In this document: positions 16,399 through 35,201 of the stretch, one piece after another
How positions within the stretch are numbered: the stretch's first letter is position 1
Layout of the letters: each line of letters begins with the position of its first letter
Source: Maricaulis sp.
Lineage (GTDB): Bacteria > Pseudomonadota > Alphaproteobacteria > Caulobacterales > Maricaulaceae
DNA: 64,000 bases
Reading direction: 5' to 3'
NCBI RefSeq assembly: GCF_017642925.1
Contig: NZ_JAEPOL010000006.1
Coordinates: 1 to 64,000 of the forward strand
The notes under the pieces: generated by a model
Told to the model about the DNA's origin: nothing
The model's input: only the letters and a program-made list of their open reading frames with translations
The model's database searches: none
Position numbers and translations under genes: made by a program

Positions 16399-16906
16399 GA
16401 TCACCCTCTCCGGTCCGGCAGCCAATCCAGCACGTCCGATATAGGCGCCCTCGACGACATTGGCGACAGGCACGCCACCCCTGCTGCTGCCCCCTTGGAC
16501 CACAACCGGAAACCCTTATAAGCAATACAAGGGCGATTGAGCGTTAGCGACGATCTTTCCCGCCCTGGCTGTGTACCATCGGTGCATCGTGTGACCGGTC
16601 GCCTGACCGCCCCGGGGATGAGGCGCGCCGCCGAGAGCGCATTCCGGAATCCCCCAACGGAATCTCGCGGAGATAGCTAACTCCTGCGGAGATAGCTAAC
16701 TCCTGTGGAGATAACGTATTCCCATGGAGATAACGAACTCCTGTGGAGATAATGTATTCCCGTGAAGATATTGTCCCTGCACAGGCGCCCCGATCCCCTC
16801 CCGGTCTCATATCAAGCGAACCCTGCGCACCCGGTATCATGGGGAGCATTGACACCATTCCTTCTAATCCTTCTAATTGCTTACAAGTCCATCCCCGGAG
16901 GCCTTC
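16399..16906. other. 508-bp non-coding region with tandem repeats upstream of the SeqA-like gene
   Basis: No supported gene lies here: a minus-strand frame across the repeats is out of register with the 19-bp period and has no ribosome site. The region holds two GAATC sites 13 bp apart (16647-16651 and 16660-16664), the tandem array at 16669-16782, an AT-richer stretch around 16850-16890, and GGAGG before the SeqA-like ATG at 16907. It must contain the promoter of the SeqA-like/dapE/membrane-protein operon. Confidence 0.6.
16669..16782. repeat. Tandem array of 19-bp repeats
   Basis: Five consecutive 19-bp units start at 16669, 16688, 16707, 16726 and 16745, and a decayed sixth starts at 16764. 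The first is GGAGATAGCTAACTCCTGC; the others keep GGAGATA at the front and nTnTCC or nTCC later in the unit. Each unit is an imperfect palindrome (GGAG...CTCC or GGAG...TTCC). The period is not a multiple of three. There are no spacers, so it is not CRISPR. The layout resembles a cluster of protein-binding sites (iteron-like) ahead of the SeqA-like gene; the function is inferred. Confidence 0.85.
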
Positions 16907-17725
16907 ATGTCGGCGCAAAACACCATCGAGCTGGACCTGGAGTGTTACAAAGCACTGGAATCTCACCGGCAATCACTGGACGAGAGCGCACTGGACATTC
17001 TGCGCCGCATCCTTCTAAGCGCTGACAGTCCTTATAAGACGCATCCTGCGGACCCTGCGGAACGGAGTGCGTCGGCCGGAGGCGAGGAAGGGAATGTCGG
17101 CGGTGGCGCACCGGATCGTACGAGCCCGACTTTGCCGCTTGATGGGACGGGCTCGACCTTGTCACCGGATCGCATGAGCTCGACTTCGCTGCTCGATCGG
17201 ACGGGCTCGACCTTGTCGCCGGATCGCATGAGCCCGACTTTGCCGCTTGATGGGACGGGCTCGACCTTGTCACCGGATCGCATGAGCTCGACTTCGCTGC
17301 TCGATCGGACGGGCTCGACCTTGTCACCGGGTCGCATGAGCCCGACTTTGCCGCCCGACTGGCAGGATCCGAATGACGAGACGGAAAGGCGAACCGGCAA
17401 TTATCTCGTCCAGCTCGGAGAAAGGGCCTGTTTCGCGCCCAGCCAGAAGGCCGCCTACCGGCTGGGGCTGATCTGGCTGGAGAAAACCCGTCCGGGCCTG
17501 CTGGCCGCACTCGCTCATGCTGGCACGCGAAACCGCCGGATCGTGGCGCATTCCCCGGACGCGCTCTATCCGCGATCGCCGGCGCTGGCCAAACATGCTG
17601 AAAAGCTGATCGATGACTGGTATGTCGATGTGAACCTCTCGAAGGAACAAAAGCTTTCGCGTCTCAAGACCGCCTGCCGGCATGCCGGCCTGATGTTCGG
17701 CAAGGATCTTATTGTTGACCTCTGA
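16907..17725 (+). CDS. SeqA-like replication-regulator homologue with repeat-expanded linker
   Basis: 272 residues; ATG 16907 is preceded by GGAGG. The N terminus ([16 protein letters not shown] and [12 protein letters not shown]) matches the oligomerisation domain of E. coli SeqA (KTIEVDDELYSYIASH, ESASDILRRML). After a 100-residue linker, residues ~165-272 follow the order of the SeqA C-terminal DNA-binding domain: helices [29 protein letters not shown] against Seq[33 protein letters not shown] against TPYWVITNTNTGRKCSMI, and a final helix. The SeqA NTN residues that read hemimethylated GATC are not conserved. The linker (69-152) has 18-residue repeats PDRMSxTxxLDxTGSTLS. Known: SeqA delays re-initiation and is typical of Dam-containing gammaproteobacteria. 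The homology is read by eye from memory of SeqA; the role here is inferred. It overlaps dapE. Confidence 0.7.
17111..17359 (+). repeat. In-frame tandem repeats (27/54/108 bp) in the SeqA-like gene
   Basis: Four 54-bp units and a partial fifth begin at 17111, 17165, 17219, 17273 and 17327. They alternate between two versions, so a 108-bp pair is nearly perfectly repeated, and each 54-bp unit is itself two related 27-bp halves. Encoded pattern: PDRMSPTLP / LDGTGSTLS and PDRMSSTSL / [13 protein letters not shown] occurs about six times in the array. Near-identity at DNA level means recent expansion and likely length variation between strains. Confidence 0.95.
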
Positions 17726-18887
17726 AACCGGCTTCGACCTCGCCAATCCAGTCCCGATCGCCCAGGCGCTGATCCGGCGCCCGTCGATCACGCCGGCCGA
17801 TGCCGGTGCGCTGGACGTGCTGCAGGGCATGCTGGAGGCGATGGGGTTTGCCTGCCGGCGTTATCCTTTCGGCGAGGTCGACAATCTCTATGCCCGCCTC
17901 GGCACAGCCTCGCCCTGCTTCCTGTTTGCCGGACACACCGATGTCGTGCCGCCCGGTGACGAGGCCGGCTGGCAGCGCGCACCGTTTGCCGCCGAAGAAG
18001 CGGACGGGGTTCTGTGGGGACGCGGCGCGGCCGACATGAAGGGTGCGATTGCCGCAATGGTCGCCGCCGTGCGCCGCCATCTCGACGCGTCCGGCACGCC
18101 GGACGGCTCGATCGCCTTCCTGATCACGGGCGATGAGGAAGGTCCGGCGATCAATGGCACCAAGGCCGTGCTCAAGGCGCTGGAGGCCGAAGGCGAGACT
18201 TTCGACCATTGCCTGGTCGGCGAGCCTACCAATCCCAATGCGCTGGGCGACACGATCAAGTCGGGCCGGCGCGGATCGCTGAATTGCGAGATCACCGTCA
18301 CCGGCCGCCAGGGGCATGTGGCCTATCCGGAGCGGGCCGAAAACCCGATCCCGCCTTTGCTCGACCTGCTGGCGCGGCTGACCGCGCGGACGCTGGACAG
18401 CGGCGTGCCGCACTTCCAGCCGTCCAATCTGGAAATCACCACGGTGGATGTCGGCAATCCGACCACCAATGTCATTCCCGCCACCGCCCGGGCCCGCTTC
18501 AACATCCGCTTCAACATCGCCCATACCGGCGCCGATCTGACCCGCTGGATCGAGGATGAGGCGGCCGGCGTGAACCTGCATTTCGACGGGCAGGTGAAGA
18601 CCGATATCCATGTTACGGGCGAAGCCTTCCTCACACCGGCAGGCGCCTTCACCAGCCTGCTGCAGGATTGCGTGGAAGCGGAAACCGGGCGCAGGCCCGC
18701 CCTGACCACCGGCGGCGGAACCTCCGACGCCCGCTTCATCCAGGCCTATGCGCCCGTGGCCGAGTTCGGCCTCGTCGGCGCGACCATGCACCAGGTCAAT
18801 GAGCGCGTGCCCGTCAGCGATATCGAGAGCCTGACGCGGATCTATGCGCGCATTCTGGATCGCTATTTCAAGGATACGCCGGAATGA
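17712..18887 (+). CDS. dapE: Succinyl-diaminopimelate desuccinylase
   Basis: 391 residues from TTG 17712 (or the adjacent TTG 17715), overlapping the end of the SeqA-like gene by 14 bases, so translation is likely coupled. Zinc-ligand motifs: [10 protein letters not shown] (H75), GRGAADMKG (D108), TGDEEGPA (E142/E143) and GGGTSDARF near the C terminus; the lid/dimerisation domain contains [21 protein letters not shown]. It removes succinate from N-succinyl-LL-diaminopimelate for lysine and peptidoglycan synthesis, acting with DapD. Full length. The next gene overlaps its stop by four bases. Confidence 0.95.
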
Positions 18888-35095: not shown

Positions 35096-35201
35096 CGCGT
35101 GGAAGACCGGACAGCGACCCGGACGAAACTCGTTACGGCTGCTTCCTTCCGGACCTGACCGGGTTGGCGAGGTGCCCGTCCACCGCCGGCCTTCCGCCCC
35201 C
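35096..35201 (-). ncRNA. ffs: Signal recognition particle 4.5S RNA
   Basis: On the minus strand the highly conserved Ffh-binding hairpin GGTCAGGTCCGGAAGGAAGC, then AGCC, lies at about 35159-35136. The flanks pair: GGAAGGCCGG (5' side, from 35195) with CCGGTCTTCC (3' side, to 35101), and an outer GCG/CGC. This gives a small bacterial SRP RNA of ~100 nt; the exact ends are estimated from pairing. The position immediately before dnaX is the usual one in alphaproteobacteria. Confidence 0.93.

Follow-up and report, generated by a model that had tools for sequence, protein, structure and literature searches.

A conserved two-domain relative of SeqA, encoded next to dapE in a Maricaulis genome with CcrM

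The gene described here occupies positions 16907..17725 (forward strand) of the window, by which we mean the whole 64,000-nucleotide stretch analysed, from a Maricaulis sp. genome of 35 contigs and 3.61 Mb (G000). It encodes a SeqA-like protein of 272 residues, as judged from an open frame with a Shine-Dalgarno sequence, two-domain orthologues and the ratio of non-synonymous to synonymous substitution rates (dN/dS). A SeqA_N-type oligomerisation domain (residues 6-36, 16922..17014) is followed by a linker with a repetitive coding region (17109..17358), a 27/54/108-bp tandem repeat found with Tandem Repeats Finder, and then by a predicted DNA-binding domain of the SeqA-C type (residues 161-272, 17387..17722). 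Within this C-domain, alignments place a reading loop, W238-K249 (17618..17653), as the counterpart of SeqA WVITNTNTGRK; all of these features are on the forward strand. In the structural model of the window protein, the linker has a predicted local distance difference test score mostly below 50. Its minisatellite is missing from the seven other aligned orthologues, and a related repeat is present in the sister genome G008. The next gene on the forward strand (17712..18887; Pfam M20 and synteny) belongs to the M20 peptidase family and is presumably dapE, a name carried over from an earlier note on this DNA, the Pfam assignment being M20 only. It overlaps the 3' end of the SeqA-like gene, provided that TTG at 17712 is its start. 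The earlier note had described a full-length SeqA-like protein in an alphaproteobacterium, and the open frame, both domains and the two-domain orthologues confirm this observation: the protein is real, conserved and outside the Dam world.

Matches were obtained in 13 of the 61 genomes searched at an expectation value (E) <= 0.01, three of them weak (E 0.003-0.006). Within Maricaulis the gene is found in 8/19 genomes at E <= 0.001 (6/16 among those of good quality), being split across two contigs in G008, and the remaining 11/19 gave no match; outside the genus, both domains are present in Marinicauda (G030). Among 385 sampled genomes of the class, the full-length protein occurs in the subject genome only, the C-domain alone in three and the N-domain alone in three, and one further match (L053) looks spurious. 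A scan of 84,980 species with two short peptide patterns, which divergent copies may escape, returned six Maricaulis loci, Marinicauda salina and a C-domain in Cupriavidus. The C-domain evolves under purifying selection, with dN/dS of 0.076-0.132 in three close pairs (synonymous rate, dS, 0.2-0.6); two distant pairs gave 0.091 (dS 2.2, saturated) and 0.264 (dS 1.0). The locus is stable beside dapE, truA and fmt throughout the loci examined, with dapE immediately 3' of the gene in the seven other Maricaulis loci and about 0.8 kb away in Marinicauda. In the single-contig genome G010, where the gene gave no match, 66 bp separate the aligned portions of dapE and a cupin gene. The pattern fits old residence at one site followed by losses better than a recent arrival.

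It is almost certain that both domains are homologous to those of SeqA, which in E. coli postpones further rounds of chromosome replication. SeqA_N aligns to residues 6-36 with 22.6 bits (E 6.3e-5), just below the Pfam cut-off of 23, and with 26 bits in a second search, which is borderline by score; the NCBI SeqA equivalog NF008389 covers residues 6-55 only (25 bits, cut-off 185). The best PDB match by phmmer is 1xrx, a SeqA-N structure (E 0.0013), and this entry is also the one SeqA-N structure among the matches standing out when the predicted fold of the window protein is compared. The score and the sequence and fold matches to 1xrx bear out the SeqA-like N-terminal domain proposed earlier. 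Mean identity of this domain is 33% to SeqA_N and 37% to SeqA_N-like domains with RAMA behind them.

For the C-terminal half, the claimed match to SeqA held by fold, four SeqA-C entries rising above the remaining matches for both the window protein model and an orthologue model, and failed by direct hidden Markov model search. PF03925 (cut-off 25.5 bits) has no match in the window protein, nor in G000 at E 0.01, and no credible Pfam family matches this half, the sole match being a clathrin model at E 0.23. In profile-profile comparison with SeqA-C, the eight Maricaulaceae C-domains alone were not significant (E 0.39). A profile with the wider C-domain family reached P 1.8e-5, or P 0.0031 when L037, which had entered the family through SeqA similarity, and L045 were removed; the controls gave 0.23 (reversed) and 0.025 (best of 20 column shuffles). 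A genome search with the wider profile retrieved two SeqA proteins and missed the other SeqA carriers in the sample, which were not counted; its complete list held one unrelated frame, at E 0.5. Viral structures offered nothing comparable to the window protein, although a relative there is still possible.

SeqA contacts GATC through R116, T117, R118, N150 and N152, according to the accessible part of one paper (PMC6225831). The counterparts in the window protein are R208, N209, R210, N243 and S245, so that three of the five contacts are conserved. In the both-domain alignment of eight proteins, all eight retain R118 and N150, five retain R116, and N152 is serine in every one. Few parts are better conserved than the loop, in which 7/12 positions (238-249) are invariant: W238, D241, N243, L244, S245, Q248 and K249. 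The earlier proposal that the NTN loop had been replaced is therefore right for the second asparagine and wrong for the first. Since the DNA-reading tip is partly changed, the SeqA-like protein, judged by its sequence, probably reads a DNA signal other than that of SeqA. The genome setting was also as the earlier note had it. CcrM is present in the subject genome (NF050803, E 2.5e-188, 625 bits, cut-off 830), with RAMA in a frame of CcrM length, and a search of G000 for the Dam class, MethyltransfD12, gave no match, other classes of GATC methylase not having been searched. RAMA matches in frames of 361-387 residues occur in 18/19 genomes of the genus, only that of the subject genome being identified as CcrM. 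It is likely that the SeqA-like protein acts independently of Dam.

A putative promoter, TTGACA-17-TCTAAT (16849..16877, forward strand), was picked by eye and its coordinates checked; a consensus promoter scan did not report it and listed another site at 16725-16753. The palindrome CTTACAAG (16880..16887; this and the following elements are unstranded), a putative operator, lies 27 bp upstream of the start. Among nine orthologues, CTTNNAAG begins 23-29 bp upstream of the start codon in seven, falls within a band from -18 to -42 in eight and, by eye, stands immediately 3' of -10-like sequences; none of the other palindromes among the 448 tested in this band reaches 7/9. In the window, four of the six CTTNNAAG start inside 517 bp around the gene (P ~4.5e-5 for any cluster of four). 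A second upstream palindrome, CTTATAAG (16515..16522), is one of four in the genome, and CTTCTAAG and CTTATAAG stand 19 bp apart within the coding region (17012..17038). Sites of CTTATAAG are few: carrier genomes have 3-7 each, whereas the reversed control occurs 21-34 times, and the corresponding figures for three genomes that lack the gene are 1-8 and 13-49. Of the 27 sites in six carriers, nine are located at the SeqA-like gene. At 16669..16760 there is also a 19-bp array with five copies of the near-palindrome GGAGATANNNNANTCC, whose unit is matched exactly nowhere else in the genome and is absent from the eight orthologue loci scanned.

A second CTTATAAG cluster occurs in G018, G015 and G016 (L071, L072 and L069, positions ~1500-1850). 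Two of its three sites are 19-20 bp apart and the third is ~130 bp off; the trio adjoins a long hairpin (fold z -8.4 in L072), 3' of a frame that we take to be hydantoinase/oxoprolinase-like. Rfam gave nothing credible on this cluster, only a chance-level microRNA match. In the single-contig genome G015, dnaA lies at 1.2 kb, with sign reversals of the sampled skew at 1.56-1.73 Mb and 3.09-3.26 Mb. With the SeqA-like gene at 526 kb and the second cluster at 2.28 Mb, neither is at the origin or terminus, and a link to either was rejected.

We propose that the protein binds DNA as a dimer, regulates its own promoter and has no need of Dam, a mechanism which as a whole we judge to be evenly balanced between right and wrong. 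The SeqA_N-type domain would pair two copies into a dimer or short oligomer, and the flexible linker would tether two SeqA-C-type domains, which may then grip pairs of short DNA sites separated by about two helical turns. The CTTNNAAG palindrome beside the likely -10 would be the protein's own operator, allowing autorepression, and the protein would act as a local regulator or nucleoid protein instead of an origin sequestrant. We favour this because of the two domains (by sequence and predicted fold), their conservation, the purifying selection, the lack of a MethyltransfD12 match, the half-changed loop and the conserved promoter palindrome.

Several points weigh against this proposal. The promoter band was picked after the sites had been seen, the eighth orthologue has CTTNNAAG at -42 and counts only with an upstream ATG, and the ninth, in G008, has none upstream of the gene. 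Since the orthologues represent few lineages, the promoter count is not one of nine independent events, and CTTNNAAG could instead belong to the core promoter or bind a different regulator. G016 has the CTTATAAG cluster and gave no match to the gene, and G010, which lacks the gene, retains a single CTTATAAG site before a GTPase-like gene, presumably ychF-like. Furthermore, the residues of the SeqA-N filament are mostly changed, T18 being arginine in 8/8 aligned proteins, I21 leucine or valine, and A25 conserved in the window protein alone (1/8), so that SeqA-like filaments are doubtful.

Alternatively, the protein could read hemimethylated GANTC, the CcrM mark, after replication, much as hemimethylated GATC is bound by SeqA, and thereby set the timing of S-phase transcription or replication events. 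CcrM is encoded in this genome, GANTC and GATC have G-A and T-C in common, and the retained R118 and N150 with the altered N152 would suit a shifted site. RAMA is present within CcrM itself, and a RAMA-like domain follows a SeqA_N-like domain in other alphaproteobacteria; RAMA has been proposed as a reader of adenine methylation, a preference unconfirmed for one RAMA protein in the accessible text of PMC11037411. Upstream of the orthologues, GANTC is more frequent than in the background (11 sites in 9 x 420 bp; 455 in 400 kb), but the 11 sites are confined to 5/9 orthologues with none in the other four, and GANTC was rejected as a conserved promoter feature. Since the gene gave no match in 11/19 Maricaulis genomes, although a RAMA frame as long as CcrM occurs in 18/19, GANTC reading cannot be essential. 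We regard this role as unlikely; if true, the Caulobacter-like cell cycle would gain a sequestration protein of the kind it reportedly lacks, and SeqA would be one branch of a wider family joining a pairing domain to a reader of adenine methylation.

A possible link to defence or restriction arises from the C-domain tree (25 domains, including 9 of the 14 SeqA proteins at hand), in which a 100/100 branch separates SeqA from all other rows and the Maricaulaceae rows (91/85) sit among nuclease-fused, stand-alone and other C-domains. Three proteins (L047, L049 and L125) carry a C-terminal SeqA-C-like domain and an N-terminus above the HSDR_N cut-off, and are candidate modification-dependent nucleases. 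The window protein could be a defence-related reader, its SeqA-C-type domain being one that elsewhere sits on type I R-protein-like nuclease domains and that here was turned into a regulator or counter-defence protein. However, PADLOC and PHROG gave no match to it at E 0.01, and its locus, stable beside dapE, truA and fmt in the loci examined, is not a defence island. Phages held no relative of the window protein, L045 or L037, viral contigs none of the SeqA-like family or L045, and plasmids no match to the L047 domain. The single plasmid match to the window protein (E 8e-4), in a pullulanase gene, covers query residues 79-178, mostly the repeat linker, and is taken to be a low-complexity chance match; phage or plasmid cargo was rejected as an origin of the gene. 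A defence-related reader is improbable.

That GATC is still read, through an undetected methylase or as an unmethylated site, is very improbable. Over its 819 bp the gene contains 12 GATC sites, half of which fall in the linker repeat, and the 64-kb window as a whole contains 564; MethyltransfD12 is found in 2/19 genomes of the genus, both carriers of the gene (2/8 carriers). The three enzymes concerned are Dam-family and score 75.6-86 bits, below the Dam cut-off of 114.85, and this genome has no such match. GATC is frequent in these genomes (3,266 per 400 kb), and N152, a GATC contact in the accessible part of PMC6225831, is serine throughout the alignment.

To our knowledge SeqA is otherwise known from gammaproteobacteria, and 0/14 genomes matching PF03925 belong to the subject's class, but recent transfer of seqA from a gammaproteobacterium is hardly credible, since SeqA and the Maricaulaceae rows lie on opposite sides of the 100/100 branch, and since the locus is common to Maricaulis and Marinicauda. 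As far as its sequence tells, the window protein is a deep, two-domain SeqA relative outside the SeqA rows, whose N and C parts may have been independently combined or anciently split. Elsewhere in the window, a small bacterial signal recognition particle RNA lies at 35099-35194 on the minus strand.

No title or opening abstract that we found reports this protein, and a paper matched by wording (PMC11556038) is unrelated in its accessible part. One paper takes seqA as a sign of Dam (PMC4786541, accessible part), and a review states, in the part available, that alphaproteobacteria have no SeqA homologue and that an unknown protein could fill the role (PMC6090056). The SeqA-like protein, conserved and half-changed in its loop, comes from a genome that has CcrM and gave no Dam-class match; it would allow a direct test of what SeqA-type domains read, and bears on where SeqA came from.

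Among known systems, SeqA of E. coli and V. cholerae (PF17206 and PF03925, NF008389) has the same domain order and both folds, and the equivalents of R116, R118, N150 and K156 are present in the window protein. The latter differs in N152 to serine, T18 to arginine and the sequence leading into the C-domain, scores far below the family cut-offs for the C-domain and the whole protein, comes from a genome with no Dam-class match and falls outside the SeqA rows of the tree. The HSDR_N-type fusions share the C-domain, including the loop tryptophan and asparagine, and that of L049 attains the PF03925 cut-off; a nuclease-type domain replaces the SeqA_N of the window protein. In three other alphaproteobacterial proteins (L051, L052 and L050, from G611, G270 and G076), a SeqA_N-like domain is followed by a RAMA-like one, both weak and below cut-offs, L050 having no Pfam match itself and being placed by similarity. 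These share the N-domain (~37% mean identity) and, unlike the window protein with its SeqA-C-type domain, have a RAMA-like reader domain, making them another pairing of the SeqA dimer domain with a suspected reader of adenine methylation.
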